Assembly (NCBI RefSeq): GCF_011065895.1
Contig: NZ_JAALCR010000001.1
Location: 1 to 64,000 of the forward strand
Reading direction: 5' to 3'
DNA length: 64,000 nucleotides
Source of the DNA: Paludisphaera rhizosphaerae
GTDB taxonomy: Bacteria; Planctomycetota; Planctomycetia; Isosphaerales; Isosphaeraceae
The notes under the pieces are model-generated. The model was not told the origin of the DNA, did no database searches, and saw only the letters and a program-made list of their open reading frames with translations. The position numbers were made by a program, and so were the translations under genes. Positions 28,063-64,000 of this stretch are shown one piece after another; position 1 is the stretch's first letter, and each line of letters opens with the position of its first letter.

Positions 28063-28151
28063 GGAGAGGTGGCTGAGTGGTCGATAGCGACGGTTTGCTA
28101 AACCGTTAGACGGAGAAATCCGTCTCGGGGGTTCGAATCCCCCCCTCTCCG
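28063..28151 (+). tRNA. tRNA-Ser (anticodon GCU)
   Basis: An 89-base serine tRNA. The acceptor stem GGAGAGG pairs with CCTCTCC, followed by a G discriminator. The D arm is GGCTGAGTGGTCGATAGC, the anticodon stem-loop is CGGTTTGCTAAACCG (GCT anticodon), the long variable arm is ACGGAGAAATCCGT, and the T arm is GGGGGTTCGAATCCCCC. No CCA is encoded. The 3' half (from 28093) is the attachment repeat, so this part is supplied by the integrated phage while the tRNA stays functional. Confidence 0.97.
28093..28145 (+). repeat. attL core (53-bp direct repeat, left)
   Basis: Runs from gtttgctaaaccg in the tRNA anticodon loop to seven Cs of the T stem, and is identical to 59594-59646. After it, both copies continue with tctccgctcc, but the right copy has one extra C. 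Confidence 0.92.
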
Positions 28152-40244: not shown

Positions 40245-41129
40245 TCAAGAATTGACCGCGTAGATCAGCCCCAGCTTGGCCGAATTCGGGCCGAGAACAT
40301 CCGCCCCGAAGGTGACAAGCTGCTTGGCCACGGTGGAAAACTGCATGGACGGCCGAACGAATTCGACGTCGCCGAGCTGGGAGGCGAAATGGAACGGAGT
40401 ACCCTGACCGCCGACGAGGTAGACGTTGGCGTTCGACGACGCCTTGGTCAGGTGATTCGAGCAGTACACGGAGAACCCCGCGATAGACCCGACCAGGCCG
40501 GGCCTGGAGGCGACCTCGCCGAACTGGGCGGCGGTCACGACCGTGTTGCCGAGGTTGGAGACGTTGATGAAGTGGTCCTTGTCCTTGAGCAGGATCCCGT
40601 AGATTTCCGGGCTGACCACTAGCCAACGATTCGTAAGCGGGGCGTTCGACTTCGTCAGGGCGGTGGCGAGATCGACGATGGTTTCGTAGGGGTCCTTGGC
40701 CGACCCGCCCGTGAATGGGATGGCGGCGTTGCTGGCCCCGGTGATCTTGTTCGCAGTGGCGGCCTTGGCGTACAGGCCGAAGATGTACGTGTCGATCGCA
40801 TCCGAGATGGCGACGGCACCATCGCGGGTGATCTGGGACAGGGCTTCCGGATTCGTCTGGACACGCTCGACGTCGTCGACGTTGATCGCCCAGTAGGGCT
40901 TCTGGTCCAGCGTCAGCGTGTTCGCGGTCGCGGTGGCGTCCATCAGGGTGAAGTCGCTGCCGGGGGTGTAGTTGCCGGCGGTGATCAGACCCGTCGAAAG
41001 GATCTTCGCGGTGCCCGCGTTGACGACGACAGGCGTGGTGTCGCAGAACGACAAGGCGATGTTGGTGGCATGGACGTTGGCGATGATGGCGTTCTGCCAA
41101 GCGTCCTGCTTAACGATGCTGTTGGCCAT
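40245..41129 (-). CDS. Major coat protein (probable)
   Basis: A 294-residue protein directly downstream of the scaffold-like gene. It has the composition of a capsid protein: low Cys, evenly charged, mixed alpha/beta, with a long N-terminal helix region and C-terminal strands (GPNSAKLGLIYAVNS). Motif-level resemblance is to P22-/HK97-fold coats (ALSQITRDGAVAISDAIDTYIF as spine helix). No sequence signature is decisive; gene order is the main evidence. Its stop is followed by the strong hairpin. Confidence 0.7.
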   Translation of the reverse strand: MANSIVKQDAWQNAIIANVHATNIALSFCDTTPVVVNAGTAKILSTGLITAGNYTPGSDFTLMDATATANTLTLDQKPYWAINVDDVERVQTNPEALSQITRDGAVAISDAIDTYIFGLYAKAATANKITGASNAAIPFTGGSAKDPYETIVDLATALTKSNAPLTNRWLVVSPEIYGILLKDKDHFINVSNLGNTVVTAAQFGEVASRPGLVGSIAGFSVYCSNHLTKASSNANVYLVGGQGTPFHFASQLGDVEFVRPSMQFSTVAKQLVTFGADVLGPNSAKLGLIYAVNS

Positions 41130-41154: not shown

Positions 41155-41712
41155 TTAGAGACGGTAAACCGTCTTGCTGTGCTTGGGAGTCGATTCCGGA
41201 GCAGGTCCACGGCCGGCGCCGGACACGGGCTTGGGCTTGTGACCTGTCAGGCTGAATGACCGCTCAACCGGGGCGGGCGTGGTGGACTCCTCCACCGGGG
41301 ACTGGGCTTCCGCCCTGAGGTACTCGCGTGAGGCGAGCAGTGTATCGATGGTCTCGGTGAGCTTGGCCTCGTCGATCTCGTCGGCGTCGGCCTGCCAACC
41401 GGAGAGGTTGTAGGCGTCTTCAAGTGCGGTGGGCTTGATCTTCCCTTCGGCGGCCTTCGCCCAGGCGTCCTTGTGCGTCCGCGTGCGGATCTGGCCTTCC
41501 AGCTCGGCGATTCGAGCGGCGGCCTCGCCCGGGGCGGTCTTCAGCTTGTTCAGGGCGTCGTCGCGTTCGACCTCGACGTCTGCCAGGCGGGCTTCCAGTT
41601 CGGCGACCTTCGCCTTGGATTCGGCGAAACGCTTGCGATACCTCGCGGCCTCGGCGTTCGTGTTCTTGTCGGTGGGTTCCACGCTGGTCTCGGCCTTGGT
41701 TTCGTCGCTCAA
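41155..41712 (-). CDS. Scaffolding protein
   Basis: A 185-residue, highly charged helical protein: a coiled coil from about 22 to 80 (RYRKRFAESKAKVAELEARL) and a basic C-terminus (GHKPKPVSGAGRG). This is the usual design of phage scaffold or minor structural GPO-like proteins encoded between portal and coat. The start overlaps the portal stop by four bases. Confidence 0.72.
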   Translation of the reverse strand: MSDETKAETSVEPTDKNTNAEAARYRKRFAESKAKVAELEARLADVEVERDDALNKLKTAPGEAAARIAELEGQIRTRTHKDAWAKAAEGKIKPTALEDAYNLSGWQADADEIDEAKLTETIDTLLASREYLRAEAQSPVEESTTPAPVERSFSLTGHKPKPVSGAGRGPAPESTPKHSKTVYRL

Positions 41713-43208
41713 GATAGGGCTCCGGACGGTGCGATTTCTGTACTGGTAAATACACCTTCCCCGGGGTCAACCACGGGGGAGGGAGCAGGGTGGTGAGGAC
41801 CGGCCAGGAGGGCGTCGATCTCGGCGATCTTCCGCTGGTCCTGGCGGACCTTGATGTACCTTTGGACGGCCTCTTCGTCGGAGGAGAGGCGATACCGACG
41901 GCGGATGACGTCGATCGTCGACTGGTAGCCGGCCGCGATGGCGTTGGCGTCCTGCGTGTCCTGGTCGACGCCCGGGATCTGGACGATGTCCTCAGGCCAA
42001 CTCACAGTCAGGTTTGCCCCGCCCTGCCCGGCCTTGCTCAACTCGGGACGCTTGAGCCAGGCACCACCCACGGCCAGGACGGCTTCGGCCACATCGTTCT
42101 CGCAGACCTTCAGGGTCTCTTGCCGGGCCCGCGTGTAGTCCACCAGGGGCTTCTGTTCGGCCTCGATGGCGTCCCCCGAGATGGTCGAGGTCTGGTCCAT
42201 TCGATAGATGCTGAGCGGGACGCCGATGGCGGTCAGGGTGCGGTCGACGGACGAGTCGATGTGGGCCTCGGCCTGGTCGACCGACAGCTGGGCCTGGAGG
42301 TATCCGATGTTCGGCTGGCTCGACCCCTCCACGAGGAGTTCCGCCGGCATCCGCATGAACTCGCCGACCACGTCCGTGGGCTGCCACTGGGCCGTGACGC
42401 CCCCGACCCAGGCCTTGGGCAGGAGGTACTTCTTCATCCCCAGCGAGAGCTGATATCGCTTCTCATCGATCGCGGCCTCCTGGTCGGCCAGCCATTCGCC
42501 GACGCCGGGCGTGGTCAGTTCCGAGACGGGGAGCTGGTGGTGGATGAAGCCGAAGGGGAGACGGCCGTAGGGGTTGATCGTCCTGGCCACCTCCTGCGTC
42601 GATCGCCCCCCCGAGGTGACGAAACCGCCGGAGTTACGGCCGACGAACACGATGCGGAAGTCCCGCGACCACCAGGTCAGGCGGATCTTGCCGTCGGGGG
42701 TCGTGTCCCGCGTGATGACGTGGCCGATGGCCGTGCAGTCGTCCTCGTCGCCCCTGACGATCAGCTCGGAGGCGTTCCAGAGGTAGAGCCGGACGGGCTT
42801 CAAGCTGACCGCCGGAACGGCCTCGACGGCCGCGAAGCCCAAGAGGTGGGCGTAGACGTCGGCCCGGTGGAGCAGCGAGTTGATCTTGTTGTCCTGGTAG
42901 ACCTCGTTCAGGAACTTGTCCGAGGCCTCATCGTCCAGGATCTGCCGCGATGGGGGCGGGCTGTAGGACAGGCTGGTCAGGATGTCCACGCACCGCTTCG
43001 TGAGGCCGGTGGACTCGATCGAGATGTGGTCGTCGTCCCCGGCGTTCCGGCTCACGAACTGGCCGCCGTCGAGGGCGTAGTAGGCCAGGGTGCGGACGTC
43101 CTCGGAGATCCTCTCCTGCTCCATCGGAAATCCGGCGAGGCACTCGCGGTAGATTGAGGATTCGTAGTCCGTCAGGGGTCGGTCGGGGGGCGACAGTTGG
43201 TCGTACAT
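41709..43208 (-). CDS. Portal protein
   Basis: A 499-residue dodecameric-portal candidate located between terminase and scaffold. Features fitting portals are the N-terminal helix-rich wing, a central beta-strand clip region (VRLYLWNASELIVRGDEDDCTA) and a long helix near 300-380 (LSVDQAEAHIDSSVDRTLTAIG, RARQETLKVCENDVAEAVLAV). The ATG at 43208 follows a 45-base gap carrying a motif copy. The last 25 codons include a further copy (HHPAPSP). Confidence 0.78.
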   Translation of the reverse strand: MYDQLSPPDRPLTDYESSIYRECLAGFPMEQERISEDVRTLAYYALDGGQFVSRNAGDDDHISIESTGLTKRCVDILTSLSYSPPPSRQILDDEASDKFLNEVYQDNKINSLLHRADVYAHLLGFAAVEAVPAVSLKPVRLYLWNASELIVRGDEDDCTAIGHVITRDTTPDGKIRLTWWSRDFRIVFVGRNSGGFVTSGGRSTQEVARTINPYGRLPFGFIHHQLPVSELTTPGVGEWLADQEAAIDEKRYQLSLGMKKYLLPKAWVGGVTAQWQPTDVVGEFMRMPAELLVEGSSQPNIGYLQAQLSVDQAEAHIDSSVDRTLTAIGVPLSIYRMDQTSTISGDAIEAEQKPLVDYTRARQETLKVCENDVAEAVLAVGGAWLKRPELSKAGQGGANLTVSWPEDIVQIPGVDQDTQDANAIAAGYQSTIDVIRRRYRLSSDEEAVQRYIKVRQDQRKIAEIDALLAGPHHPAPSPVVDPGEGVFTSTEIAPSGALS

Positions 43209-43253: not shown

Positions 43254-44753
43254 TTATTTCCGGCGGGCTTCGCGGACGAATGACTGGGATAGAGCGTCGA
43301 AGGTGTCGGGCGATCGCTTCAGGATCCGCTGGAGTTCTTCTTTTTCGATGAGAGCCGAGCGGCCGTCCCCCCTGGCGACGCCCCGCAACGCCTTGAGTTC
43401 CTCGACGAGTTCCTTGTCGGGCGGGATGTAGAATGGGGCACCGTGCTCGACGCCGATGAAATACCCGCGGGCGAGGCGGCGGGCCAACGTGAAGGCACAG
43501 GCACTGCGGGCGTTCGCGAAGTGCTTGGAAAACTCCACCGCGAGGTCCCCCCCAAAGTAGGGCCACGGGTTGTGCACCCCCTCGCGTTTCAGTGCGGCGG
43601 CCATCTGAGAGCCGATGTCCCCGCCGCCGTCGTAGCTGATATGGCTGTCGGGAACGTTGTAGGTGTGCTTGAGGCGGGCGACTTCGGAGGCGGCCCCCTC
43701 GACGCCCAGCATGTCGTCGGCCTTCAGGGAGATCACGCCATACGAGTCCCTGACTACCAGGACTGAGGCTGACTTACCGACCCCTCCGCCTACGTCGCAC
43801 GAGATGTAGACCTTGTTCTCGCCGGGCTTCGCACGATCGCGGTAGGCCTGGGCGGCGACCCGGCACTCCTCGCTGATCGCGTAGTCGAGATCCTCGATCG
43901 GTATCAGGATTTCCGAGGACGTTGTGGGCCATTCACTTAAAACGTGAGTCCTGAACCAGAAGCTGTTCTCACCCTCTTCGTTCCTCTTGCGGTCCAGGAA
44001 CGTCTTGTCGGCGATGCCCCAGGGGCTGTGATCGAGGTGGCTGTGGGGGCTGGCCGTGGACGGGACGCGGATCGCCCGCGAGGAGGACGCAGGGGGGATG
44101 CCCTTCTTCTCTGACTCCAGGGCCGTCAGATACCGCTGGTAGTAGCCCGTGTTGATGGAGAGGGGGTTGCCGACGATCAGCGTCCTGCGAGGTCCCAATC
44201 CCCCCAAGGCGTCGAAAACAAACTGGGGGATGCCCGACCCTTCCTCCACGACCACAAAGAGGTCCGACGAGTGGAACCCCGAGCAGTTTTCCTCCTTGTT
44301 CGCGGCGATCCCAATAATGCGTGAGCCGTTGGGAAAGACGATGTTCGGCCGAGCGGAACCGCCCCTGGAGATCTTGGCCCCGAGGTTGATGCGGGGCTTG
44401 TATTCCTTGCCCTGGTACGTGTAGCCGCCCAGGATCTTGCCGATGCCGGACCAGGTATTTTCCAGGATGGTGGCCAAGGATGGGGCGAAGACCAGGACGG
44501 TGGAATGCGGACGAGTGCAAGCCCACCAACAGATCAGAGAATGAGCTAGCGTTGATTTTCCCAGATTGTTGCCCGTCACCAGCACGGTCTCGGCGTTCTC
44601 GCAGACGGCCTCCGCCCACTCCTTCTGACCTTGGACGCCGGTGGCCTTGCCGGACCAGTAGGGCATCCCGCCCAGGATGACCTCGTTGAAAAGCGAGGGG
44701 TCCCACAAGCACTCGTTCCGGATGAAGCTGGCCACTCGTTCTTCAGGCGTCAT
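43254..44753 (-). CDS. Terminase large subunit
   Basis: DNA-packaging motor of 499 residues. The ATPase half has a deviant Walker A TGNNLGKST (60-68) and Walker B LFVVVEEGSG (165-174). The RNase H-like nuclease half begins near KVYISCDVGGGVGK, with the first catalytic Asp, and includes ISYDGGGDIG. The ATG at 44753 overlaps the stop of the upstream small gene (ATGA). The stop is followed by a repeat copy and then the portal gene. Confidence 0.9.
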   Translation of the reverse strand: MTPEERVASFIRNECLWDPSLFNEVILGGMPYWSGKATGVQGQKEWAEAVCENAETVLVTGNNLGKSTLAHSLICWWACTRPHSTVLVFAPSLATILENTWSGIGKILGGYTYQGKEYKPRINLGAKISRGGSARPNIVFPNGSRIIGIAANKEENCSGFHSSDLFVVVEEGSGIPQFVFDALGGLGPRRTLIVGNPLSINTGYYQRYLTALESEKKGIPPASSSRAIRVPSTASPHSHLDHSPWGIADKTFLDRKRNEEGENSFWFRTHVLSEWPTTSSEILIPIEDLDYAISEECRVAAQAYRDRAKPGENKVYISCDVGGGVGKSASVLVVRDSYGVISLKADDMLGVEGAASEVARLKHTYNVPDSHISYDGGGDIGSQMAAALKREGVHNPWPYFGGDLAVEFSKHFANARSACAFTLARRLARGYFIGVEHGAPFYIPPDKELVEELKALRGVARGDGRSALIEKEELQRILKRSPDTFDALSQSFVREARRK

Positions 44754-45052
44754 TCCTGCTCGATCCCTCGGGCCTCGATCAGACTGACCAACGCCAGGAT
44801 GTTGTCCCCTGCTCCGCCTTCCGACAGCCTCTCCTTCATCGAGACCTCGCGTTCCGTGAGGGCCAACCGCTCCGCGGCCAAGAGGGCCTTGAGAGCGGAC
44901 GTCTTCTCGCGGGGGCTCACCTTGGGATCCAGGGCGATCTTCTCCAGCTGCTGACGTAGCGAGATCCGCGTGTCGTTGTCGGTGATCCACCCCCCGGCGA
45001 AGGCCTGGCGGGCGAGTGCGACGTCGGACCGTGATTCGAGTTCCACGCTCAC
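44750..45052 (-). CDS. Small gene upstream of terminase, possible TerS
   Basis: A 100-residue helical, charged protein (DTRISLRQQLEKIALDPKV, ALKALLAAERLALTEREV). The GTG at 45052 overlaps the upstream TGA (GTGA) and the stop overlaps the terminase start, so expression is coupled to the large subunit. Position and helical nature suit a small terminase subunit, but I see no clear helix-turn-helix. Confidence 0.5.
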   Translation of the reverse strand: MSVELESRSDVALARQAFAGGWITDNDTRISLRQQLEKIALDPKVSPREKTSALKALLAAERLALTEREVSMKERLSEGGAGDNILALVSLIEARGIEQE

Positions 45053-50665: not shown

Positions 50666-50692
50666 GGTAAGCACCATAGGGAGTTAGTGATC

Positions 50693-51943
50693 GTGACCAC
50701 CTACGAATCAGCACTCGAATACTCTCAGGCGGGGCTCCGAGTCGTGCCCTGCAAGCCGCAAAGCAAAGAGCCTCTCATCAACGACTGGCCGAAGCGGGCC
50801 ACCACGTCGCCCTCGCAGCTTCGCGATTGGTTCGAGGGACACCCCGAGCGAAACATCGGCCTCCTGACCGGTGGCGGCGTCTTCGCCGTCGACGTCGACG
50901 AGGAGCAGGGTGTGAAGTCGTTGAATGGGTTCGTCCGCGGTCGTTCGTGGCCCCACACGGCCATGGCCGAGACCGGGAACGATGGCTTCCACTTCCTTTT
51001 CCGCACCAACGTCCAGGTCCCCACCCAGACGGGCTTCCGTCCCGGTCTCGACCTCCGCGGGGAGTCCGCGAAGATCGTCGTCGCCCCCAGCGTCCACCCC
51101 GACACGGGGACGGTCTACCGCTGGATCTCCCATCCCCTGGACGGGATCGCGATCGCCCCCCGATGGCTCCAGTCCTGGATCGTGAGCGAGTCGACGGCGA
51201 CGTCAAACACTCCGGCTTCGGGGGGATCGCCCCTCGTGCTCAATCATAGCGGCGACGTGGAGGCGTTGGCCGCGGACGTGATCGAGCGTTTCCCGGTCGC
51301 CCAGAAGGGCACTCGGAACGCGATCATGGTCAAGGTGCTCTGTTCGCTTCTCGGTCGTGGCCAGGAAGCCGAAGTTGCAGCTGAGGTCGCCATCCGTTGG
51401 TGGCAGCACTTCTACGACAGGGGGACGATCGGAACGACCCCCAAGGAGGCCGCCCGAACGATCGAGAAGTCCATCAAGTCCATCATCAAGAGCGGTTCCC
51501 TCCAACGAGCCGTCAGCCGGGATCACTCCGCTAAGGTCGCCGAGCAATCTCTCTCTCCCCAACAATCCGCGGCACTTGGACTCTCCGACCAAGAGGCCAA
51601 TACCCATTCTTTACATACAGGACTAACAACCTCCCTTCGGTCGGATCTCGATCGCTGGTTCGCCGAGGCCCTCCTGCTCCACTCCCAGTACGAGATCTCC
51701 AAGGAACCCACCCGCGAGGCCATCCCCTTCACCTCCAACCAACTCCGCGACCTCGTGGAGACACGCCATGGCCGGAAGTTGAAGGATCCCGAGATCGAAC
51801 GTCTGAAGGTGAAGTTCGTCAGCCGGCCCGACAAACCCGCCAATCGATACGAACTAGCCGAGCAGACCTACACGGGGTCGTCGTACTTGCGGAAGCCCTC
51901 CGAACTCCGACTGACCGGTCTACAGGGGTTGCTCCCTCCCTGA
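50693..51943 (+). CDS. Bifunctional primase-polymerase (Prim-Pol) protein
   Basis: A 416-residue protein with an N-terminal archaeo-eukaryotic primase-type Prim-Pol domain (about 1-180): the metal motif VFAVDVDEE with Asp67/Asp69, NDGFHFLF with His100, and GLDLRGESAKIVVAP. The rest is helical; no helicase domain is fused. The GTG at 50693 fits GGGAG at 50679; a GTG two codons earlier is too close to it. A 21-bp direct repeat begins inside the gene at 51611. Confidence 0.78.
   Translation: MTTYESALEYSQAGLRVVPCKPQSKEPLINDWPKRATTSPSQLRDWFEGHPERNIGLLTGGGVFAVDVDEEQGVKSLNGFVRGRSWPHTAMAETGNDGFHFLFRTNVQVPTQTGFRPGLDLRGESAKIVVAPSVHPDTGTVYRWISHPLDGIAIAPRWLQSWIVSESTATSNTPASGGSPLVLNHSGDVEALAADVIERFPVAQKGTRNAIMVKVLCSLLGRGQEAEVAAEVAIRWWQHFYDRGTIGTTPKEAARTIEKSIKSIIKSGSLQRAVSRDHSAKVAEQSLSPQQSAALGLSDQEANTHSLHTGLTTSLRSDLDRWFAEALLLHSQYEISKEPTREAIPFTSNQLRDLVETRHGRKLKDPEIERLKVKFVSRPDKPANRYELAEQTYTGSSYLRKPSELRLTGLQGLLPP
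51611..51631 (+). repeat. 21-bp direct repeat, copy 1
   Basis: ttacatacaggactaacaac plus c, inside the primase-polymerase gene; an exact copy follows at 51975. Extending five bases upstream adds four more matches. A+T-rich against its surroundings. Confidence 0.75.
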
Positions 51944-53860: not shown

Positions 53861-54086
53861 CCCGAGTCGGCATCGAGTCGGCCCGGGTCCTTTGGCTTCG
53901 ATGGCCGACGTCTACCCCACCCCTGCTCCGAATCCTTAGACAGCGGCTGTCATTCGATGGCCGACGCCATTCTCAACCTCTTTGAGCGGGAATAAGCCTC
54001 TTTGTTCCGATCGCCTGCATGGTGTCTTAGGGTGTGAGATGCCGAGCAACCTCGCTCGGTTACCTCAAGGAAAGGGAGGTTTCAGG

Positions 54087-54599
54087 ATGGCCGAATTCAA
54101 CCCAGACGAACTCAGCAGTGACGAGCGAGATGTACTGAGCTTGATCTGCTACTTTACCCAGGTCCTGAGTTCCAGGACCGTCGAGGGCGTCATCGATAAG
54201 GTCGTTGCGGCGGCCAAGGTGCGATACGGGCTTTCTCAGGATCGAGTTCAAGACGCAATCAATACGTTGTTCATGTTCAGGGTGATTGAGTCCAATGGGC
54301 AGAACCCGGTCTATGAGTCGATTCCCCACTCAGCCCTTCCCAAGTCCACACCTTCCGGCATCGAGGTGGCGATTCTGAAGATGTTGCACCCCTTGGGGAG
54401 GGGGCCGTTCGACTGGAAACAGATCATGTCAGCGATCAAGACGCGGCACGGCCTCTTCGTCGATGGACTTGAAGCCGACATTCTCGAAACGATGAGAGCA
54501 TTCGATCTGATCGCCTTGAACGCATACGGCCAGCCGCTGCTCCAAGCGGCAGGCAAGCACATCGCTGAGGAAGCACTCGCGGCAGGCCAGATCGAATGA
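54087..54599 (+). CDS. Unknown protein, two winged-helix-like halves
   Basis: A 170-residue protein. Both halves have a helix-rich pattern ending in a short beta pair: residues 10-75 (LSSDERDVLSLICYF, AINTLFMFRVIESNGQNPVY) and 90-165 (IEVAILKMLHPLGRGPF, ADILETMRAFDLIALNAYG). This fits a tandem winged-helix regulator, possibly the missing repressor, but that is inference. The ATG follows AAAGGGAGG, and a CCGAGC/GCTCGG hairpin (54042-54059) lies in the leader. Confidence 0.5.
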   Translation: MAEFNPDELSSDERDVLSLICYFTQVLSSRTVEGVIDKVVAAAKVRYGLSQDRVQDAINTLFMFRVIESNGQNPVYESIPHSALPKSTPSGIEVAILKMLHPLGRGPFDWKQIMSAIKTRHGLFVDGLEADILETMRAFDLIALNAYGQPLLQAAGKHIAEEALAAGQIE

Positions 54600-54715: not shown

Positions 54716-55672
54716 TCATCCTGACTTTCGCTTCGGCAACATCATCGAGAGACGTCGAGTGAGTTCGGCCGCCGTCTGTCTGACGATTTTCTGATAGCTT
54801 TCCCCGTCGGCATACAAGTAGACGGCCCTATTGAAATCTTCAACTCTTACTAGTGGGAAAAACATGTTGGCTGGGACGGTTTTGGTAGCAAGGCTGTTCA
54901 TAGGATGAGGGCGGTTTGCGTCGGCCTCAATCCCGAGGATCGGCCCACGCATAGTCAAGCTGACTCTCTTGAAGCGATTTGGATCGGCCGCCATGTATTG
55001 AAGTGCTCGCCCCACATCACCCTGCCATCTCAGATCGGCGAGGTTGAGCATCTCAAACGTCGCATAGAATGGCACCGTTCGATGTCGGCACGCTGCGGTG
55101 GGATTCCATCCGTTGATCTCATTGGTGCAGAACGCGGCCAAGTCCTTGCCTTTTTCCCCTGCCTTATGGGCCAACTTGAGCCCCGAAGCCACGCAAGTTG
55201 AAATCGATTCACCAGACTGAAGCCGTTCGATAAGGCTGAACACGTCTCGCTCGAACTCGACCCGTGTTGGACCAAGGACAGCGATTGCTTGTTTTGCGAG
55301 TTCGTTAATTCCCAGGGTAGAGGAACGACCTAACTTCCCAGCCAACATCGGAGAATACCGATACACATCCGCTTTGGTAACTTTGTGCCAAACCGTAAGT
55401 ATGCGTTTCCCACCTGCAACCAGCCCATCGAGTTCGTCGCGTGGCCAGTCTTTACGGAAGAAGTCGGGAGACAGCACTACGATCCCGATTCGAGAGTCCC
55501 GCAATCCCCGGTCGATGCTGGCTCGAAGGCTATCCCCCCAGCCCAATGTGAATTCATCGTACCAAACCTTAACTCTGCTTCGCCTAAGTCGTTTGACGAA
55601 TGGCCGGACGAACTCCTCCTTGTCTTCACTCGCATGTGAGATGAAGAAATCCCATTCATAGTCGATTGACAT
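54716..55672 (-). CDS. TIR-domain protein with AbiTii-like segment, probable defence gene
   Basis: A 318-residue protein. The N-terminal TIR domain (about 5-130) has the DFFISHASEDK start, VKVWYDEFTLGWGDSL, and the putative NAD-cleaving centre SPDFFRKDWPRDEL with Glu80. A middle segment (about 155-190: GLKLAHKAGEKGKDLAAF, NEINGW) resembles the AbiTii motif of abortive-infection proteins. The C-terminal part is unassigned. The gene is richer in A+T than its neighbours and has its own promoter, so it is probably lysogeny-expressed cargo protecting the host. The function is inferred. Confidence 0.72.
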   Translation of the reverse strand: MSIDYEWDFFISHASEDKEEFVRPFVKRLRRSRVKVWYDEFTLGWGDSLRASIDRGLRDSRIGIVVLSPDFFRKDWPRDELDGLVAGGKRILTVWHKVTKADVYRYSPMLAGKLGRSSTLGINELAKQAIAVLGPTRVEFERDVFSLIERLQSGESISTCVASGLKLAHKAGEKGKDLAAFCTNEINGWNPTAACRHRTVPFYATFEMLNLADLRWQGDVGRALQYMAADPNRFKRVSLTMRGPILGIEADANRPHPMNSLATKTVPANMFFPLVRVEDFNRAVYLYADGESYQKIVRQTAAELTRRLSMMLPKRKSG

Positions 55673-55711
55673 GGCCGCCCCCGTGTCCAGCCTTTGTTCA
55701 GCACCTTCTCA

Positions 55712-55740
55712 AGCATAATCAAACGGGGGGCGTGGGGCAA
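55712..55740 (-). promoter_or_regulatory. Promoter of TIR gene
   Basis: On the minus strand TTGCCC (55740-55735), 17-base spacer, TATGCT (55717-55712). It is placed about 40 bases upstream of the TIR start and faces away from the plus-strand promoter at 55777. Confidence 0.45.
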
Positions 55741-55776
55741 GTTTTTCTGAACGGGTGTCCAAGTGCAGCCGTCGCC

Positions 55777-55804
55777 TTGATCCTTGTCGAAACCCATGTA
55801 TACT
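55777..55804 (+). promoter_or_regulatory. Promoter of the 55841 gene
   Basis: TTGATC (55777-55782), 16-base spacer, TATACT (55799-55804), a good -10. It supports the start at 55841 (GGGAGA site) rather than an in-frame ATG at 55796 that would overlap the -10. Confidence 0.5.
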
Positions 55805-55840
55805 GTGGCCAAAACCTCACTTATAGTGGGAGACACGGCC

Positions 55841-56143
55841 ATGCTCTGGCGTCTGGAAGTCGTGCGAGAGGGGCAACACGAAACGCTGACGGCGGATCTC
55901 CCTGCCTCGTACTTCGTCGAGAACTGGGAGGTCGTCGCCCAGACAGTAGGGCCGTACGCGAGCGTCCGCCTCGTTACTGCCGACGGGATCAGTCTGGTGC
56001 CGGTCGGAGGACTCGGTCGCGACCTGGTGACGTGGTGGAAGGTCGAGCCCAGCCAAGCTGGCGAGCCCTCCCGGCCGGGACTTCGGGCGGCCTTCGTTCA
56101 GGCGGAGAACCTGGCGAGGGGCAACGCGTCGAAGTCCTCGTAG
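55841..56143 (+). CDS. Small phage-cargo protein, unknown
   Basis: A 100-residue protein with an alternating-strand N-terminus (MLWRLEVVREGQHETLTADL), an aromatic centre (TWWKVEP) and a polar C-terminus. The last 46 bases overlap the convergent zinc-ribbon gene on the other strand. It has its own promoter, like the neighbouring TIR gene. No family recognised. Confidence 0.5.
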   Translation: MLWRLEVVREGQHETLTADLPASYFVENWEVVAQTVGPYASVRLVTADGISLVPVGGLGRDLVTWWKVEPSQAGEPSRPGLRAAFVQAENLARGNASKSS

Positions 56144-56388
56144 GAGATCAGGAACGTCGGGAGATCCTTCCCCCGGCGGGTGACGAAGCAGGTGTGGGGC
56201 TCGGGTTCTTCGATGAACACCTGGAGCAGGAAGGGGGTCGAGGGGTCGAAGTCATGGGTCGTCAGGGCGTCCAGCCGCCACAGGTCGACGGCCGTCGCGA
56301 CCCGGAAGGAGTCGTCCAGGTTCTCCTGGCACTCGGGGCAGAACATCCCCGTCGAGGTCTCGCCGCAGGACAGGCAACGCTCGCTCAT
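56098..56388 (-). CDS. Small zinc-ribbon protein, family with a chromosomal paralogue
   Basis: A 96-residue protein with an N-terminal treble-clef-like zinc site (CLSCGETSTGMFCPECQENL) and a shared C-terminal segment (SYEDFDALPLARF). It is clearly related to the gene at 62333-62656 outside attR (CLSCG, LCDSCK, SYEDYLALSRAV). Start at 56388 follows GGAGGGATTCC. Unknown role; its 3' end overlaps the plus-strand gene by 46 bases. Confidence 0.65.
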   Translation of the reverse strand: MSERCLSCGETSTGMFCPECQENLDDSFRVATAVDLWRLDALTTHDFDPSTPFLLQVFIEEPEPHTCFVTRRGKDLPTFLISYEDFDALPLARFSA

Positions 56389-56485
56389 CGGAATCCCTCC
56401 CCGGGACGGTCGAAGTCGACGCAAGGGAGTCTATCACACGGGGGGACGGGGACATTTCCTCTCGACGATCTCCATGGTCACGTCC

Positions 56486-57076
56486 TCATCCGATCGTGAG
56501 AAGGTCTGAGAGCTTGAACGAGCCATAGGGTAGGTCGCCGACCACGATCGGGACCTCCTGCTCCGCGTCCCGCCGATAGTAGACGTCCACGCCGGGCATG
56601 GCGATCTCGCTGAAGCCCCCGCGGAGGTTGACCAACCAGTGCTGACGAAGACCCGCCTTGAGATACTTCCGGCGCCCCCAGAAGACCCTATCCTCGTTCA
56701 CGCCCGTGACGAAGTCGACGACCAGGGCCACGTCCTTGGGGGTGAGCATCCCTCCGACCCCCGGCGGGTGGACGACGACCCGGGGGCCGAACACGTTGAA
56801 CTCATCGAGGTGAAGGTGTAGCGGAGCCGCGGTCACGCTCCAGGCCGTCCCCAGACGGGCCCCGAGCAACTCCGCAAACGCCCCCGTCACGGCCTCGACG
56901 AACCGGTCGTGCTTGAACGCCATCACACGGCCGTTCACCAGCTCCAACCAACGGAGCCCCCTCTGCTCGTGCCACCCCTGGGCCATGATCCACGCGAGGT
57001 TCTCGGCGGTCATCCGATAGGGTGCATGCAGCCCCCGCAATCGTATGGCATTCGGGTTTCCTCGGACCGGCTCCAT
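56486..57076 (-). CDS. Uma2-family nuclease-fold protein (prophage copy)
   Basis: A 196-residue protein: family elements are WLELVNGRVMAF, PKDVALVVDFVTG with a downstream Lys (RRKYLKAG), and the terminal strand HWLVNLRGGF. Sequence is well diverged from the chromosomal Uma2 genes here. Start at 57076. A phage-borne Uma2 may have been acquired from a planctomycete host. Unknown function. Confidence 0.68.
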   Translation of the reverse strand: MEPVRGNPNAIRLRGLHAPYRMTAENLAWIMAQGWHEQRGLRWLELVNGRVMAFKHDRFVEAVTGAFAELLGARLGTAWSVTAAPLHLHLDEFNVFGPRVVVHPPGVGGMLTPKDVALVVDFVTGVNEDRVFWGRRKYLKAGLRQHWLVNLRGGFSEIAMPGVDVYYRRDAEQEVPIVVGDLPYGSFKLSDLLTIG

Positions 57077-57233
57077 CTCATCTCCCCCAGGTTACGCGGA
57101 CTCCCCACGACAACCTTAGCGGATGATCGGCAGTGTGCCATTGGGATCTTGTAAGATCCCCTTGGGGTTGATCGGTTCCCTCAAGATCCGGTATGAGGTG
57201 GCGTCTCGACAACCCTGGACATGGAGGTTCAGC

Positions 57234-57776
57234 ATGATCGCGGAGAGAGCTTTGTCCATTCTGGACGCCTCTGACAAAAGTAACAGTCCACAACTCAAGC
57301 GGGTGTTGAACGCCTGGAGTGAGACCAAGACGGTTGTTCACTTCGACCCAGAAGTCGCCGAGGCCCTATGGCGATCCGTGGTCGACTTCAGGCTGCCCCC
57401 CGGCTATCCCAGCGGCATCGGGGGATGCGTGTACATTCCCACGCCTGGCAGGCAACTCTACGACGAGCCTCTCCACGGGTTCTTCGTTTCCGGCCGGGGC
57501 GACCTGTTCGACTTCGTGCTGGACGGGCAAAGGGAGTTGTGGGCGACCTCGATGGAGCCGACTTCGATCATTCAACTCCACGACGTCGCCAGGCTCCTCA
57601 TTCCCTACATGTCCTTCGGTTGCTTCATGCGAACCTCGAACATCGTGCCTATGGCAGGGCAGAGAGATCGTCCCATAGAACTGCGAGCGAGGTACGAGGG
57701 CGACCTACCCGAGCGGGGCCTATGGGAACCCACGGAGGACGGTAGGCACATGAGATGGGTCAACCGACCGGCCTGA
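57234..57776 (+). CDS. Unknown protein
   Basis: A 180-residue protein with helical N-terminal (MIAERALSILDAS) and mixed central part (HFDPEVAEALWRSVVDFRLP, DEPLHGFFVSGRGDLFDFVL). The ATG at 57234 follows GGAGG. The stop is followed by a pair of opposed repeats. No domain recognised; cargo position suggests a host-directed or defence role. Confidence 0.5.
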   Translation: MIAERALSILDASDKSNSPQLKRVLNAWSETKTVVHFDPEVAEALWRSVVDFRLPPGYPSGIGGCVYIPTPGRQLYDEPLHGFFVSGRGDLFDFVLDGQRELWATSMEPTSIIQLHDVARLLIPYMSFGCFMRTSNIVPMAGQRDRPIELRARYEGDLPERGLWEPTEDGRHMRWVNRPA

Positions 57777-58371: not shown

Positions 58372-59454
58372 TCACCCCGCCGCGGCCTCCGGCTTGGCCG
58401 TCCTGAGAGCTTCCAGCCGAGCATGTGCGTCCTGGAAGGTCGACGTTCGGAAGCGGCCGTAGACCTGCTCGATCATCTTGACCGAGGTGCCGGCCATCCG
58501 GGCGATCAGCAAGACGTCCAGGCCCGCCATGAGGCACTCGGAGATCCAGAGGTGGCGGAAGCTGTACACGGTGATCGAGGATCGAACTCCGGCCCTCCCT
58601 CGCACGCTCTGGAAGCGTTCGGCGAGGTTGACCGACGTGTAGGCCCCGCCCGAGGGCCGCTGGAAGATCGGTTCGGCGGTCGTCTTGCCGTCGAGGTGCT
58701 TCTCCAGGATCTCCACGGCCTCGCCCGACAGATGGATGGTCCGGACCTTCCCCGTCTTCCGGGCGGTCTTGTGCTCGCGTAGCACGATCGCCGACGCCCG
58801 TCGGTCGTAATCGCCCACCCTCGCCCGGATCAACTCGTAGGAGCGGGCCCCTGTCGCGTGGTAGAGCCTCAGCAGGTCGCCCATGTGGTCGAAGGAGTCG
58901 CCGGCGTTGAAGAGCTTCGCCACCTCCTCGGCGGTCGGCAGGTCCCCCTCGGAGAGTGACTTGGGGGGGAGATGGATGGGCTCGACTCGGGCGAAGGGGT
59001 CGCACGGTCGGATCCAGCCCTGGCGGACGGCCCGCCTGAACATCGCCTTGATCGAGGTCAGGTGTTTGCCCTGGTAGTCGAGGGAGTAGCTCTGCGAGGC
59101 CATCCACGACGTGAAGGCGTCGATCGCCTTGGAGTCGATGGAGTCCGCCGGCTTCGCTTCCCCAACGAACTCCACGAACCGGTTGATGTGGCGGGTCCGC
59201 TCAAGGTGGTTCTTGGCGGCCCGGTGCCGTCCGACCCATTCGAGGAACTTCGTCCGCAGGGTGGCCAGACTCATCCGTAGGTGCCGCTGGCGACCAACCG
59301 GCCGGGACTCTTCCTTGCCCGCGAGGAAGGCCCACAGGGCCGCCCTGGCCACCTCCTGTGGGGTCTCCTCGACCTTGCCGTAGTACCTGGGCGAGCCCCC
59401 AGCCTCGCTATACCAGTAGCCGTTTTTCGCCCTCACCTCGGGTCGTCTCGCCAT
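58372..59454 (-). CDS. int: Tyrosine-family site-specific integrase
   Basis: A 360-residue recombinase with an N-terminal arm-binding/core-binding part (1-165, SAM-like helices LATLRTKFLEWVGRH) and a catalytic domain with Arg204 (GARSYEL), Lys229 region, the second Arg in VYSFRHLW (Arg300), and nucleophile Tyr332 (VYGRF). The usual HxxR box reads YSFRHL, with Tyr in place of the first His. The gene starts 140 bases inside attR and reads away from it, the standard position. GAGGGG precedes the ATG. Confidence 0.92.
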   Translation of the reverse strand: MARRPEVRAKNGYWYSEAGGSPRYYGKVEETPQEVARAALWAFLAGKEESRPVGRQRHLRMSLATLRTKFLEWVGRHRAAKNHLERTRHINRFVEFVGEAKPADSIDSKAIDAFTSWMASQSYSLDYQGKHLTSIKAMFRRAVRQGWIRPCDPFARVEPIHLPPKSLSEGDLPTAEEVAKLFNAGDSFDHMGDLLRLYHATGARSYELIRARVGDYDRRASAIVLREHKTARKTGKVRTIHLSGEAVEILEKHLDGKTTAEPIFQRPSGGAYTSVNLAERFQSVRGRAGVRSSITVYSFRHLWISECLMAGLDVLLIARMAGTSVKMIEQVYGRFRTSTFQDAHARLEALRTAKPEAAAG

Positions 59455-59468
59455 CGGATTTGCCCCTC

Positions 59469-59487
59469 TGTCGGATTCAATCCGGTA
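59469..59487 (+). repeat. 19-bp arm-type repeat, right end
   Basis: The second copy of tgtcggattcaatccggta (first at 28242-28260), between the integrase start and attR. It is a candidate arm site for integrase binding and may overlap the int promoter region. Confidence 0.5.
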
Positions 59488-59593
59488 TAACTGAGGGAAT
59501 CATAAGCCGAATCGAGTGGATCGACAAGAGGCAAGTAGTGGCCCTAGTGGCACTTGCGACACACGCGAAGCGTGGTGAGGCGTCAGCCGAACC

Positions 59594-59646
59594 GTTTGCT
59601 AAACCGTTAGACGGAGAAATCCGTCTCGGGGGTTCGAATCCCCCCC
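59594..59646 (+). repeat. attR core (53-bp direct repeat, right)
   Basis: Identical to 28093-28145 and followed by an extra C and then tctccgctcc. The upstream bases cgtcagccgaacc do not pair as a tRNA 5' half, so this is the displaced tRNA-Ser 3' end. Confidence 0.92.
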
Positions 59647-59905
59647 CTCTCCGCTCCGCTAGAAGCTGCAAAGTCTTACGGCAGATTCTTCCCCTTCCTG
59701 GGGGTGCCGAGTGCTTGGTTGCACCTTGCCGGTTCCATGCCGGCTGTCTGATTCAAACAGCTCAATGATCCGGGTGGATGCGTCCTATGATCCTCCGGCG
59801 TCGCATCGGTAATCCTTCGCTCCAGATCCTTCCACGGATGCTACTGTCTCCTTCGGCGGCCGTGCGTGGCAGGATTCGGCCCTACGAATGGAGGGGAGAG
59901 GCTGT
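59647..59905. other. Flank homologous to the phage-side attL flank
   Basis: From about 59658 to 59809 this sequence is alignable with 28152-28305: shared blocks include ttgccggtt, gatgcgtcct and gcgtcgcatcgg, and both have a short ccggtt...gccgg hairpin. No gene is supported. It may be ordinary tRNA downstream DNA of which the phage carries a diverged relative, or the end of an older element. Confidence 0.55.
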
Positions 59906-60439
59906 ATGCCGCCGAGGCGAAGTCACACTCTGGCCGACCTGATGGGTTTCGTCGTCGCCGTCGGCGTGTCGCTGGGATGTCTGACTCTCTACTCGCGTAT
60001 CGACCCGATCGACTTCTCGGCCCGCAACATCACCCTCATGCCGGACTTGATGACGGCGGCGACGAGTTTCCTCGTCCCCATTTCGTTGTCGCTCGGCGCG
60101 ATCGCCATGCTGAAAACTCCACGTCGCCGATGGCCATACCATCCGGCCGTCATGGTTGGCGTCTCGATCGTAGCGGCGGCGTTCGAGTCGTCATTCGGCT
60201 TTGCCAAGCTGCTCTACCATGCTTCCGTGATAACCGCCGACAATCTCTCGCTGGCCTTCACGTACTGGGTAGACCATCTGCGGGGGATCGTCGTGATCCC
60301 GCTAATCGCCTTCGTACTCGTAGCCGCACTCGGGGGCCGACTCAGTTTGCCCAGGGATCTGATCGAGTGGGCGGCCGTATGCTCGGGAATTTCCTGGATC
60401 GTCCTCTGGTCTTCGCGGTATTGGCCACCGTTCTTCTGA
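59906..60439 (+). CDS. Four-helix membrane protein, tandem paralogue 1
   Basis: A 177-residue protein with four hydrophobic segments. It begins with the family motif TLADLMGFVVAV and has a conserved loop RRWPYHPAVMVG between helices 2 and 3. The ATG at 59906 follows GGAGGGGAG. It is the first of four tandem paralogues on the same strand with short gaps; function unknown. Confidence 0.65.
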   Translation: MPPRRSHTLADLMGFVVAVGVSLGCLTLYSRIDPIDFSARNITLMPDLMTAATSFLVPISLSLGAIAMLKTPRRRWPYHPAVMVGVSIVAAAFESSFGFAKLLYHASVITADNLSLAFTYWVDHLRGIVVIPLIAFVLVAALGGRLSLPRDLIEWAAVCSGISWIVLWSSRYWPPFF

Positions 60440-60453
60440 TCGGAGGCGACGCC

Positions 60454-60987
60454 GTGGACCGAGACAACCGATGGAACATCAGCCTCGCCGACCTCGCGGT
60501 CCTGATGGTCGGCTTTGCCCTCTCGATCGCTGTGTTGCGGTCGGCCTCGGACGTCACGCCGACACAGGGGGTCCTCTACTACCACTATTCGAACTACACG
60601 GCGATCACCGCCCTGTCCTCGATCCCGCTGACCTTGACTCTGGCGGCGATCGCCATCGCCAGGACCGGACTACGCGAGTGGCCCTTCCACCCCGCCATCG
60701 TGCTGGGTCTGGTCACGTTCGCCCTGGCGGCCGTCCTGATCGTCCCGGTGTCGAGGTCGAACATGTACCTCTTCAACGTCGGGGGCTTCGATGGTGATAC
60801 CCGGTACGTCATGTATGGGGCGTCCCTGGTGAAGTACGTCCCGAAGTTTCTCGCCGCGACGTGCCTCGTCCTTCTGGCATGCGGCGGGCTGAGAAGGAGG
60901 ACCGATTGGCTCAGGGCGGCGGGTTGGTTCTTGTCACTATGGTGGGTCGGCCTGGGGAGCGCAGCCTACGTACTGAGTTACTTCTGA
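60454..60987 (+). CDS. Four-helix membrane protein, tandem paralogue 2
   Basis: A 177-residue paralogue: ISLADLAVLMVGFALS at the start, then the loop REWPFHPAIVLG. The GTG at 60454 follows CGGAGG. It lies 14 bases after copy 1, so the genes are probably one transcript. Confidence 0.65.
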   Translation: MDRDNRWNISLADLAVLMVGFALSIAVLRSASDVTPTQGVLYYHYSNYTAITALSSIPLTLTLAAIAIARTGLREWPFHPAIVLGLVTFALAAVLIVPVSRSNMYLFNVGGFDGDTRYVMYGASLVKYVPKFLAATCLVLLACGGLRRRTDWLRAAGWFLSLWWVGLGSAAYVLSYF

Positions 60988-61000
60988 CGGGGGCGAGGCG

Positions 61001-61507
61001 TTGGACCGTAAGCTCTCGATCGCCGAGTTGGTCGTCCTGGTCGGGGCGTTCGCCCTGGCCCTGGGTTCGCTGCGTCTGTTCCTCTATATGATCCCCCTGC
61101 CGACTGACGCGAAGACCCAGGCGGCCTACCGGACGCGGTACGTCGTCGACGCCGCTTCGGCCTTCATCGCCCCGCTCTATCTTGTGGTCGTCGTCCTGTC
61201 GACACGCCGAACTCCGCCCTCGGAGCGGCAAGGCCATGCGGTCTTCGTGGCAGGGCCCACGATCCTTGGGTTGATGGCGTCTATCCTGTCCGGAGTCGCC
61301 TACCATGCCTTCCGTCGAACAGGGGGGGGGGCCGCCGTCGAACGGATCTACGGAATTTGCCAGAACTCAGGAGTAATCCTTTTCGTGTGTTTCGTCATGC
61401 TCGCGGTGGGAAGACGACTCCGTTGGCCCCAGGACCGCCTGGAATGGTCCGCCTGGGCGCTGATCGCGTGCTGGATGTTCCTGATCTTCCTGCCGGTGCT
61501 GGTCTGA
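61001..61507 (+). CDS. Four-helix membrane protein, tandem paralogue 3 (diverged)
   Basis: A 168-residue, most diverged copy: LSIAELVVLVGAFALA at the start; the WPxHPA loop is degenerate (RQGHAVFVAGPTILG). The start is TTG at 61001, 13 bases after copy 2. Confidence 0.6.
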   Translation: MDRKLSIAELVVLVGAFALALGSLRLFLYMIPLPTDAKTQAAYRTRYVVDAASAFIAPLYLVVVVLSTRRTPPSERQGHAVFVAGPTILGLMASILSGVAYHAFRRTGGGAAVERIYGICQNSGVILFVCFVMLAVGRRLRWPQDRLEWSAWALIACWMFLIFLPVLV

Positions 61508-61524
61508 CCTCCGGAGACGACGTC

Positions 61525-62061
61525 GTGGCCCGAGCCAAGCACTGGAATCCCAGCCTCGCCGACCTCGCCGTGCTCATCGTGGGTTTCGCCGTCTCGGCCG
61601 CTGTGCTGCGGTTCACCATGGCCAGCAGCCTCTCCTCGACGGGGATTCGACTCACGAAGAGCCTGCAAAACGCGGCGACGGCGTCGTTGTCCCTGTGCCC
61701 CTTGAGTTGGACGGTCGCCGTGCTCGCGATGCGGAGGACCAGCCGTCGTTGCTGGCCTTTGCATCCCGCCGTCGTTGTGGGCCTGACCTCATTCGCCATA
61801 GCCGTCTACGAATTCGTCCCCAGGGTCATGCCGGCCCTCCTGCGCCTCACGCGAAGTTGGTCGCTCGACTCCGCGACGCTCTTCTTCGGGGCGATGCTCC
61901 TGGGACACGTCGGGAAAGCCCTCTTCGCCTGGGCCTTCATCATCCTGGTCGCGAAGCGGATTCGACGGCCCGACAGTTGGCTGGCGGTCGCCGGTTGGCT
62001 GCTCTGGCTCTGCTGGGTCGGCGGCGACTTCTCACGCTACGTGGTGGGTTGGCTCGCTTAG
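61525..62061 (+). CDS. Four-helix membrane protein, tandem paralogue 4
   Basis: A 178-residue copy: PSLADLAVLIVGFAVS at the start and the loop RCWPLHPAVVVG. It ends with helix 4 and an aromatic stretch (YVVGWLA). The GTG at 61525 follows GGAG. It closes the paralogue array. Confidence 0.65.
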   Translation: MARAKHWNPSLADLAVLIVGFAVSAAVLRFTMASSLSSTGIRLTKSLQNAATASLSLCPLSWTVAVLAMRRTSRRCWPLHPAVVVGLTSFAIAVYEFVPRVMPALLRLTRSWSLDSATLFFGAMLLGHVGKALFAWAFIILVAKRIRRPDSWLAVAGWLLWLCWVGGDFSRYVVGWLA

Positions 62062-62332
62062 CAGGGCGATGCGGGCGATCACGTGCACGGACATTTCGCG
62101 GTTCTCATCGACCACCGTCGCCGCCTTCATTCGGAACGACCATACGCCATCCCGTTGAGTTGATTTCTCTCGAACATCACGGCCGCAGCGAGTTCGACGG
62201 CCGGGTGCACGATCACCAAGACCAACGTGGAGAGCTTCACGATCATTCCGCGATGATGACGGCCGCGTTGGGGGCTACTCCGCAGGACGAGATTCCAGGA
62301 GATCGCCGAGGTCGGCCGGCCGATGGTGTCGT
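62062..62332. other. Gap after the membrane-protein array
   Basis: About 270 bases. A minus-strand fragment 62127-62246 could encode a short hydrophobic peptide (MIVKLSTLVLVIVHPAVELA), possibly a decayed array-like gene in the opposite direction. No full gene is supported. Confidence 0.35.
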
Positions 62333-62656
62333 TCAGAGCGTGACGGCCCGGCTCAGCGCGAGGTAATCCTCGTAACTGAGGTCGAGGTCTCCGCACCCGG
62401 TCGGCCCCTGGAAGAGCCGGATCTGGAGGGGGCCGAAGGGATCGTCGAAGCTGGCGTGCAGCAGGAAACGATCGGACTGGGGCCTGTCCGCGAAGAACTC
62501 GGCCGGGAGGACGTGCCGGTAGCCGCGTGCGACGGCGGTCCGGTTGAGGCCTCGTAGCTGGTCGAGGGTGGCCGCCCGCTCGTAGTCGGCGATGAGCAGT
62601 TTGCACGAGTCGCAGAGGATCGCGGCGGATTGGGCGCCGCAGGACAGGCAGTGCAT
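62333..62656 (-). CDS. Small zinc-ribbon protein, paralogue of prophage gene 56098-56388
   Basis: A 107-residue protein with MHCLSCGAQSAAILCDSCKL at the N-terminus (two CxxC motifs) and SYEDYLALSRAV at the C-terminus. The architecture and end motif match the prophage gene. The start at 62656 follows GGGAGGAT. It lies outside attR, suggesting spread of the same small family by mobile DNA or host expansion. Confidence 0.65.
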   Translation of the reverse strand: MHCLSCGAQSAAILCDSCKLLIADYERAATLDQLRGLNRTAVARGYRHVLPAEFFADRPQSDRFLLHASFDDPFGPLQIRLFQGPTGCGDLDLSYEDYLALSRAVTL

Positions 62657-62966
62657 GGTTGGATCCTCCCGGGGGCCGATCGAAGACCGAAGAGAATCTA
62701 TCACACTTTGAGAATGATTGACCCAATGGCCTCGATTGAGGCCATCCATGATGTGAACCGGTCGACATCGTTGGACGTGATTGCGTCTGCATTTTTTTCT
62801 TGGCGACATGATCGACGGACCTGGTAAGGTGGCGGCGTCGACCCGTCGTCGATACCTCCTCTCCCCGAGGACGATATCCCTCGTCCTCCCGTCGACGGAT
62901 TCGGTCCATTCGATTCGACCCGTCTTGTAGCATGGCTCGCGCACGGACACTTCACGGGAGGTCGCC
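62657..62966. other. Gap with perfect hairpin
   Basis: A perfect eight-pair hairpin ATGGCCTC-GATT-GAGGCCAT is at 62726-62745, between two divergent genes. A T7 tract (gcatttttttctt) lies nearby without a stem. No gene seen. Possible operator or processing site. Confidence 0.4.
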
Positions 62967-63923
62967 ATGATGCGGAACCGCAGGGAGTTCCTCGGACTCG
63001 TCGGTGCAGCGACGACGATCGGCATGACCGGCGTCGGCAATGCCCAGGATCAACCCTCGCCAGGGACGCCGACGCCCGCAGCGAAGCGACGGCGTCCGAT
63101 CGGCGTTTCGACCTACTCGTTCTGGCAGTTCCGCGGCAACCGGCTGGGGATCGAGGACTGCATCGAGAAGGCCGCCGCGATGGGGTTCGACGGCGTGGAG
63201 GTCCTCCACGTCCAGATGAAGGACGACTCCAACCCTGCGCTCCAGAGCATCAAGCGGAAGGCCCATTCGGTCGGACTGCCGTTGATGGGCTTCTCGACTC
63301 ACCAGGGGTTCGTCTTCCCCGACGAGGCCGAGCGTAAGGCGAACATCGAAAAGACGCTCCGTCAGATCGACCTGGCCTACCGCATGGGCATCCCGACCAT
63401 GCGGATCAACACCGGACGCTGGAACACCATCAAATCGTTCGACGAGTTCATGGCCCACAAGGGAATCGAGCCCACGCCGGCCGGCCACACGGATGACGAG
63501 GCCTTCGGATGGGTCATCGGCGCGCTGGAGAAACTCCTCCCCCGCGCCGAGGAGTGCGGGGTCGTCCTCGGGCTGGAGAACCACTGGGGGCTCGGTCGTA
63601 CGGCCGGCGGCGTGCTCCGGATCGTCGAGGCGATCAAGTCCCCGTGGCTCAAGATGACGCTCGACACGGGCAACTTCCTGGAGAACTCGTACGAGCAGAT
63701 GGAGCAGATGGCGGCCAGCCCGATCGGCGTCGAACTGGTGCAGGCCAAGACGTATTTCGGCGGCGGCCGCTGGTATTCGCTGGACCTCGACTACGCGCGG
63801 ATCGCCAAGATCCTGAACGACCACGACTATCGCGGCTGGATCTCGCTGGAATTCGAGGGGAACGACGACGCCGAGACCGGCGTGCCGAAGAGCCTGGAGA
63901 TGCTTCGCAAGCACCTCGGTTGA
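62967..63923 (+). CDS. Tat-exported sugar phosphate isomerase/epimerase-like protein
   Basis: A 318-residue protein of the xylose isomerase-like TIM-barrel family. The N-terminus has a Tat-type signal (NRREFLGLVGAATT) and the barrel motifs SVGLPLMGFSTHQG, metal/acid residues in GLENHWGL and TLDTGNF, and the last Glu in ISLEFEG. The ATG at 62967 follows GGGAGG. Such exported isomerase-like proteins are very common in planctomycetes. Substrate unknown. Confidence 0.82.
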   Translation: MMRNRREFLGLVGAATTIGMTGVGNAQDQPSPGTPTPAAKRRRPIGVSTYSFWQFRGNRLGIEDCIEKAAAMGFDGVEVLHVQMKDDSNPALQSIKRKAHSVGLPLMGFSTHQGFVFPDEAERKANIEKTLRQIDLAYRMGIPTMRINTGRWNTIKSFDEFMAHKGIEPTPAGHTDDEAFGWVIGALEKLLPRAEECGVVLGLENHWGLGRTAGGVLRIVEAIKSPWLKMTLDTGNFLENSYEQMEQMAASPIGVELVQAKTYFGGGRWYSLDLDYARIAKILNDHDYRGWISLEFEGNDDAETGVPKSLEMLRKHLG

Positions 63924-63939
63924 GACAGGCGTCGACTCC

Positions 63940-64000
63940 TCAATCGATGAATCGATTGCGGCGCAGGTCGCCGTGCGGGTTGAAATCCCGGTAGTGGGGG
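63940..64000 (-). CDS. Partial gene, C-terminal end only
   Basis: The minus strand at the window edge ends in a clean frame: PHYRDFNPHGDLRRNRFID and TGA at 63942-63940. Only the last 19 residues are visible; the rest lies beyond the window. No family assigned. It converges on the isomerase-like gene. Confidence 0.45.
   Translation of the reverse strand, partial: PHYRDFNPHGDLRRNRFID

Follow-up and report, generated by a model that had tools for sequence, protein, structure and literature searches.

A decayed older element as the probable neighbour of a prophage at the tRNA-Ser(GCT) gene of Paludisphaera rhizosphaerae

The accretion of elements in tandem, one of them decayed, is a known and fairly ordinary kind of layering. 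A review of integrative mobilizable elements (PMC5704250) sets out a three-step history in which one element integrates and decays before another enters at its att site; in that source a CIME (cis-mobilizable element) is one that keeps both attL and attR when its integrase and transfer genes have been lost. At the ssrA gene of Dehalococcoides, PMC3146451 describes tandem genomic islands bordered by repeats of the 3' end of the RNA gene, some of the islands having no integration module. A third described system is tRNA-dependent lysogeny, where, according to PMC10865867, a tyrosine integrase uses a tRNA gene as attB without the gene being restored at the junction.

The locus considered here lies at a tRNA-Ser(GCT) gene of Paludisphaera rhizosphaerae, in a stretch of 64,000 nucleotides (positions 1 to 64,000 of contig NZ_JAALCR010000001.1, hereafter the window), and is, on the preferred reading given below, a further instance of such layering. 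As in the history of PMC5704250, two elements would stand in tandem at one target gene, one functional-looking and the other decayed; in contrast to it, the newcomer here is a prophage, and its older neighbour has seemingly lost the distal att site. Since a distal att was not found, the older element is not classed as a CIME in the strict sense. The likeness to Dehalococcoides consists of islands layered behind one RNA gene and of conserved sequence around the repeats; that system, however, has a serine recombinase, a 20-bp repeat and 28 repeats aligned across strains, whereas here there is a tyrosine integrase, a repeat of approx. 66 bp and only one left-over fragment that was found. With tRNA-dependent lysogeny the locus shares the tyrosine integrase and the use of a tRNA gene as attB, but it differs in having an intact tRNA-Ser at attL and a long shared core.

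The inner unit (28153–59590) is a prophage of the tailed-phage type, with matches in PHROGs for five of ten scanned proteins. It has genes on the minus strand for the major head protein (40245–41129), the portal (41709–43208) and the large subunit of the terminase (43254–44990), all recognised by PHROGs, and a tyrosine integrase at its attR end (58372–59454, minus strand; Pfam PF00589, phrog_1). The expected features are present: head and packaging genes, an integrase that adjoins an att site, and a junction where the tRNA is intact. A primase-polymerase (50687–51943; PF09250, Prim-Pol) is also encoded, as well as a TIR-domain protein (54716–55672, minus strand) whose TIR part matches ThsB of the Thoeris system and models of candidate systems; no partner gene was recognised among its neighbours at 53982–54599, 55666–56499, 56486–57076 and 57078–57341. 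Searches of viral contigs with the integrase, the head protein and the terminase, and of genome contigs with the integrase, gave no relative. The closest integrase (42%) is found in the same-genus genome G001, where the sole tRNA in the 72 kb fetched around it is a tRNA-Arg approx. 21.8 kb away; this integrase therefore offers no second example of the flanking sequences discussed below.

The two junctions of the prophage are marked by copies of the 3' part of the tRNA. The intact tRNA-Ser(GCT) at attL (28063–28152, plus strand) is supported by ARAGORN, Rfam and the synteny of the left flank; presumably its 5' part comes from the host and its 3' part was restored by the prophage. The left copy of the att core (28090–28155, plus strand) matches the sequence from 59591 onward, and the right copy at attR (59591–59657, plus strand) is a truncated tRNA-Ser that holds approximately its last 63 bases (about tRNA positions 28–90). 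This right copy is also called as a tRNA by ARAGORN; Rfam accepted only the left copy at the gathering threshold, and the 5' part of the right one is not homologous to the intact tRNA-Ser. In the right copy (59634–59661) a run of C is one base longer than in the intact tRNA, which is possibly a mark of decay or a homopolymer error. The truncated direct repeat stands between the prophage and an outer unit of 4.27 kb.

The feature that first drew attention to this junction is that the DNA beyond attR, where an earlier note on this stretch had seen homology to phage DNA inside attL, does resemble the prophage end adjoining attL. We refer to these two sequences as arm A (28153–28312, plus strand, the arm of the prophage beside attL) and arm B (59658–59815, plus strand, homologous to arm A and proposed to be the tRNA-proximal arm of an older related element). 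A pairwise alignment of 28152–28305 with 59657–59809 has 112 identical columns out of 160, with 13 gapped positions, in agreement with the identity of roughly two-thirds given in that note, and the blocks gatgcgtcct and gcgtcgcatcgg that it quoted are both present. The similarity is concentrated in a core (28202–28305 and 59706–59809) where 81 of 105 columns are identical; blastn gave 78% over approx. 104 bp, with an E-value of 3.8e-16. Between the tRNA end and the core, 49 bases on the left and 48 on the right match more weakly (30/54 columns), so the core begins 50 and 49 bases past the respective tRNA ends. From its start near the tRNA end, the homology extends for approx. 150 bp before it fades. 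Across the core there is no reading frame that stays open in both arms, and a coding explanation was rejected.

Chance similarity or an artefact of assembly would be a very improbable explanation of this resemblance. The extra C in the right copy of the tRNA could indeed be a sequencing error, as an artefact would have it; nevertheless, the local score between the arms is 91, against a mean of 19.4 and a maximum of 33 in 500 dinucleotide shuffles, both arms keep the same register to the two tRNA ends, and the flanks are collinear with those of relatives on both sides. When 185 tiles of the window were compared, the next best score was 38, for a tile that covers a 19-bp repeat near the integrase.

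This 19-bp repeat, TGTCGGATTCAATCCGGTA, is palindromic and is present inside arm A (28242–28260, plus strand) and, in an identical copy, 14 bp upstream of the start codon of the integrase (59469–59487, plus strand). No other match with up to three mismatches was found in the window, and 100 shuffles gave none. Two short partial copies of the motif, inverted with respect to each other, are located at 28395–28403 (plus strand) and 28416–28424 (minus strand); they are weak, given that the 9-mer GTCGGATTC is found at 7591, 20576 and 40065 as well. Once the phage is circular, one 19-bp copy would lie on either side of the att core, in the manner of arm sites for an integrase or excisionase, and the repeat is a candidate arm site for the integrase or Xis, or a candidate operator; alternatively, the right-hand copy could be an operator of the integrase gene. 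Because an identical palindrome is present on both sides of the phage att core, it is suggested that the arms are conserved by virtue of holding integrase-binding sites. There is no exact copy of the palindrome in arm B. Scans for the exact pattern of the palindrome in viral contigs, and of the last hairpin in genome and viral contigs, in collections that may leave out the genome studied here, gave nothing.

The same-genus genomes, compared over approx. 20 kb in either direction or as far as the contig reaches, bear on whether the DNA beyond attR is host core. In G001, G002, G004 and G005 the whole left flank as far as the tRNA is collinear, and in G003 it is partly so. To the right, a conserved block begins at window position 63932 in the comparison with G002, at 63944 with G005 and at 63940 with G004, and the distance from the tRNA to this block is only 108 bp in G002 and 79 bp in G005, being 733 bp in G004; in G001 and G003 the block lies a long way from the tRNA, and these two are unusable as empty sites. 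Short unrelated spacers separate the tRNA from the conserved block (63932–64000 in the window) in G002 and G005, from which it follows that 59658–63931, approx. 4.27 kb beyond attR, is extra in the genome studied here. There is therefore extra DNA, relative to G002 and G005, on both sides of the tRNA repeat: the prophage on the left and the 4.27 kb on the right. The possibility that the sequence from 59658 onward is core genome conserved at empty sites, which according to the earlier note would have spoken against an additional element, was examined and is not what G002 and G005 show. The search proposed there for further tRNA-Ser 3' fragments was negative: none was found to the right of 59657, and therefore no far end of the older element either.

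This comparison also bears on the first option raised in that note, namely that the phage carries a diverged piece of tRNA-downstream DNA from another host. Under this explanation 59658–59809 would be native to the host lineage as the sequence behind its tRNA, and imprecise excision from a related host would have given a phage ancestor its copy, which has since diverged. A homology that starts near the tRNA end and fades after approx. 150 bp is what a captured flank would look like, and 59810–63931 carries no signature of an element that was found; nevertheless, the two near-empty sites show spacers unrelated to it, and the sequence is absent from the other same-genus genomes searched (0/5) and from the tRNA-Ser loci of relatives that were compared. 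Capture requires a relative in which the sequence is part of the host's own DNA; the relatives searched include no such case, and this route is unlikely. The comparison of the relatives' tRNA-Ser loci and the genome searches in which the sequence was missing thus disfavour capture, and the sites of G002 and G005 favour the other option of the note, tandem insertion with an older element at this tRNA.

The searches on which this rests were as follows. At 29 tRNA-Ser loci in relatives, of which 27 are tRNAs and two are fragments, the first 500 bp downstream hold no arm-like sequence, the scores being 14–24. Among 45 downstream stretches, two of them from the genome studied here, no relative carries the sequence either. 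Arm B, searched against 397 genomes of the class including the one studied here, matched this genome and a single stretch of 34 bases in G028; this last match, of 35 aligned columns, had no extension and no tRNA in the 20 kb fetched, and was dropped. Arm A, searched against 45 genomes of the family, matched only its own genome. On the basis of the relatives' loci, the class genomes and the sites of G002 and G005, conserved host DNA downstream of the tRNA was rejected as the identity of this sequence.

A functional RNA has also to be considered, since the arms might be a structured trailer, a terminator or a small RNA downstream of the tRNA, held by selection on the RNA and carried by elements to restore the 3' context of the tRNA after integration. 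Arm A folds as a row of hairpins (z = −2.3, with 5 of 200 shuffles as good), and a structure shared by the two arms comprises 28 pairs, in two of which both partners have changed. Against this, arm B folds no better than its shuffles (z = −0.55, 56/200 as good), two sequences cannot establish covariation, there is no Rfam match apart from the tRNA, and the sequence is missing at the tRNA-Ser genes of the relatives compared. A covariance model built from both arms found only their own two copies as strong matches in the 45 family genomes, and weak matches in G023, G016 and G008 (E-values of 0.005–0.023) were taken as chance. A role as a structured RNA is not supported beyond the modest folding score of arm A, and this explanation seems rather improbable.

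The extra 4.27 kb (59658–63931), absent at this site in G002 and G005 and proposed to be a decayed older element or island, has an unremarkable content. Behind arm B there are four tandem genes on the plus strand (59906–60439, 60460–60987, 61001–61507 and 61525–62061) for small paralogous proteins of 168–178 residues, which on reading their sequences would seem to be membrane proteins. None of the four has a match in Pfam or PADLOC, nor in PHROGs for the three that were scanned there (the third was left out), and the fourth has a relative in only one of 58 other genomes (G001, 34%), being nearly unique to its own genome. These are followed by a small protein with two CxxC pairs detected by reading (62340–62654, minus strand) and by a TIM barrel protein similar to xylose isomerase (62967–63923, plus strand; PF01261). 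Close homologues of the latter (67–75%) are present in 14 of 36 other genomes of the family and in none of five of the same genus; in view of this distribution, some of the 4.27 kb may be lineage-specific DNA with no connection to an element. Among the proteins of this region that were scanned (the third paralogue without PHROGs), no integrase or phage gene was recognised. Apart from arm B, no convincing homology to the prophage was detected, and a tblastx comparison in which unrelated short pieces share one E-value was not used. The G+C content of the extra DNA is 0.635, that of the prophage 0.640, and those of the flanks 0.668 and 0.654.

Other genomes of the family provide parallels at the same gene. 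A truncated 3' copy of tRNA-Ser that starts at tRNA position 28–30 was found in six of 45 genomes, that is, the one studied here and G009, G018, G022, G035 and G113, and in all six the start falls in the same crossover region as in the copy at attR described above. When the DNA after the intact tRNA was compared with that after the fragment (G018 was left out, as its fragment was found without an intact partner), homology was detected in the genome studied here (score 91), in G035 (188) and, more weakly, in G009 (39); it was missing in G022 (19) and G113 (21), whose arms without homology within the genome match what is expected of single insertions. These values can be set against a comparison of 45 downstream stretches, two of them from the genome studied here, in 990 pairs, for which the 95th and 99th percentiles are 28 and 71 with true relatives included. 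The clearest parallel is G035, where a homologous arm and a broken integrase tail are present beyond the tRNA fragment. Of the integrase encoded beside the intact tRNA, only the C-terminal part has a counterpart in the DNA beyond this fragment, split over two frames, which is the expected appearance of a decayed older element. The piece with the intact tRNA and the piece with the fragment lie on different contigs, so that their linkage is not proven. For G009, the 6.4 kb examined past the fragment hold no counterpart of the integrase encoded next to the intact tRNA.

Tyrosine integrases were recognised by Pfam among the longest open frames just downstream of tRNA-Ser genes or fragments at six of 38 loci, a count that covers fewer loci than all the tRNA-Ser matches found and only the longest frames within 1.5 kb, and that misses integrases that are broken or more distant. 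At one locus of G001 (L014) there was no Pfam match, and the downstream DNA reads by eye like an integrase tail. A second and different family of tRNA-proximal arms is spread across several genera (G006, G012, G022, G025, G035, G113 and others); it adjoins a tyrosine integrase in G006, G022, G035 and G113, and some of its members show, by eye, terminator-like hairpins and tandem GGGCA repeats.

Taken as a whole, the DNA beyond attR is probably the tRNA-proximal end of an older integrated element with an attachment region related to that of the present phage. An older element would first have entered the 3' part of tRNA-Ser(GCT), which placed its arm, now arm B, directly after the tRNA. The present phage would then have integrated at the same tRNA, just ahead of arm B, and supplied a tRNA 3' part of its own together with arm A, in such a way that A came to follow the intact tRNA and B the left-over fragment. 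Either before or after the entry of the phage, the older element would have decayed, losing its distal attachment site and its integrase and leaving approx. 4.27 kb of arm and cargo. If the sequences after attL and attR are the arms of two related elements, their homology is the expected relic. That the outer unit starts with an arm related to that of the inner unit, and in register with it, is seen directly; the role of B as an att arm, its former membership of an element and the order of these events are what we infer. The distal att repeat of the outer unit, which would be expected unless it had decayed, was not found, and decay is the presumed cause. This missing site, the unremarkable genes of the remnant and the fact that it is not recognisably mobile are the weak points of the tandem explanation.

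A somewhat different possibility, which we regard as doubtful, is that the arm of approx. 104 bp is a dedicated module, made of palindromes in a row, which serves for integrase docking and takes the place of the 3' trailer of the tRNA, and which is exchanged among otherwise unrelated elements in this host lineage. If this were true, the older and the younger element would share only the module and no common backbone.

The explanation that an older element lies in tandem behind the prophage has consequences for how this region is read. The DNA beyond attR is not safely taken as plain host DNA, and statements on boundaries and cargo at this locus should allow for an older unit of 4.27 kb. In the family, tRNA-Ser(GCT) is a recurrent site of integration that is sometimes layered, and this matters for the choice of empty-site references.
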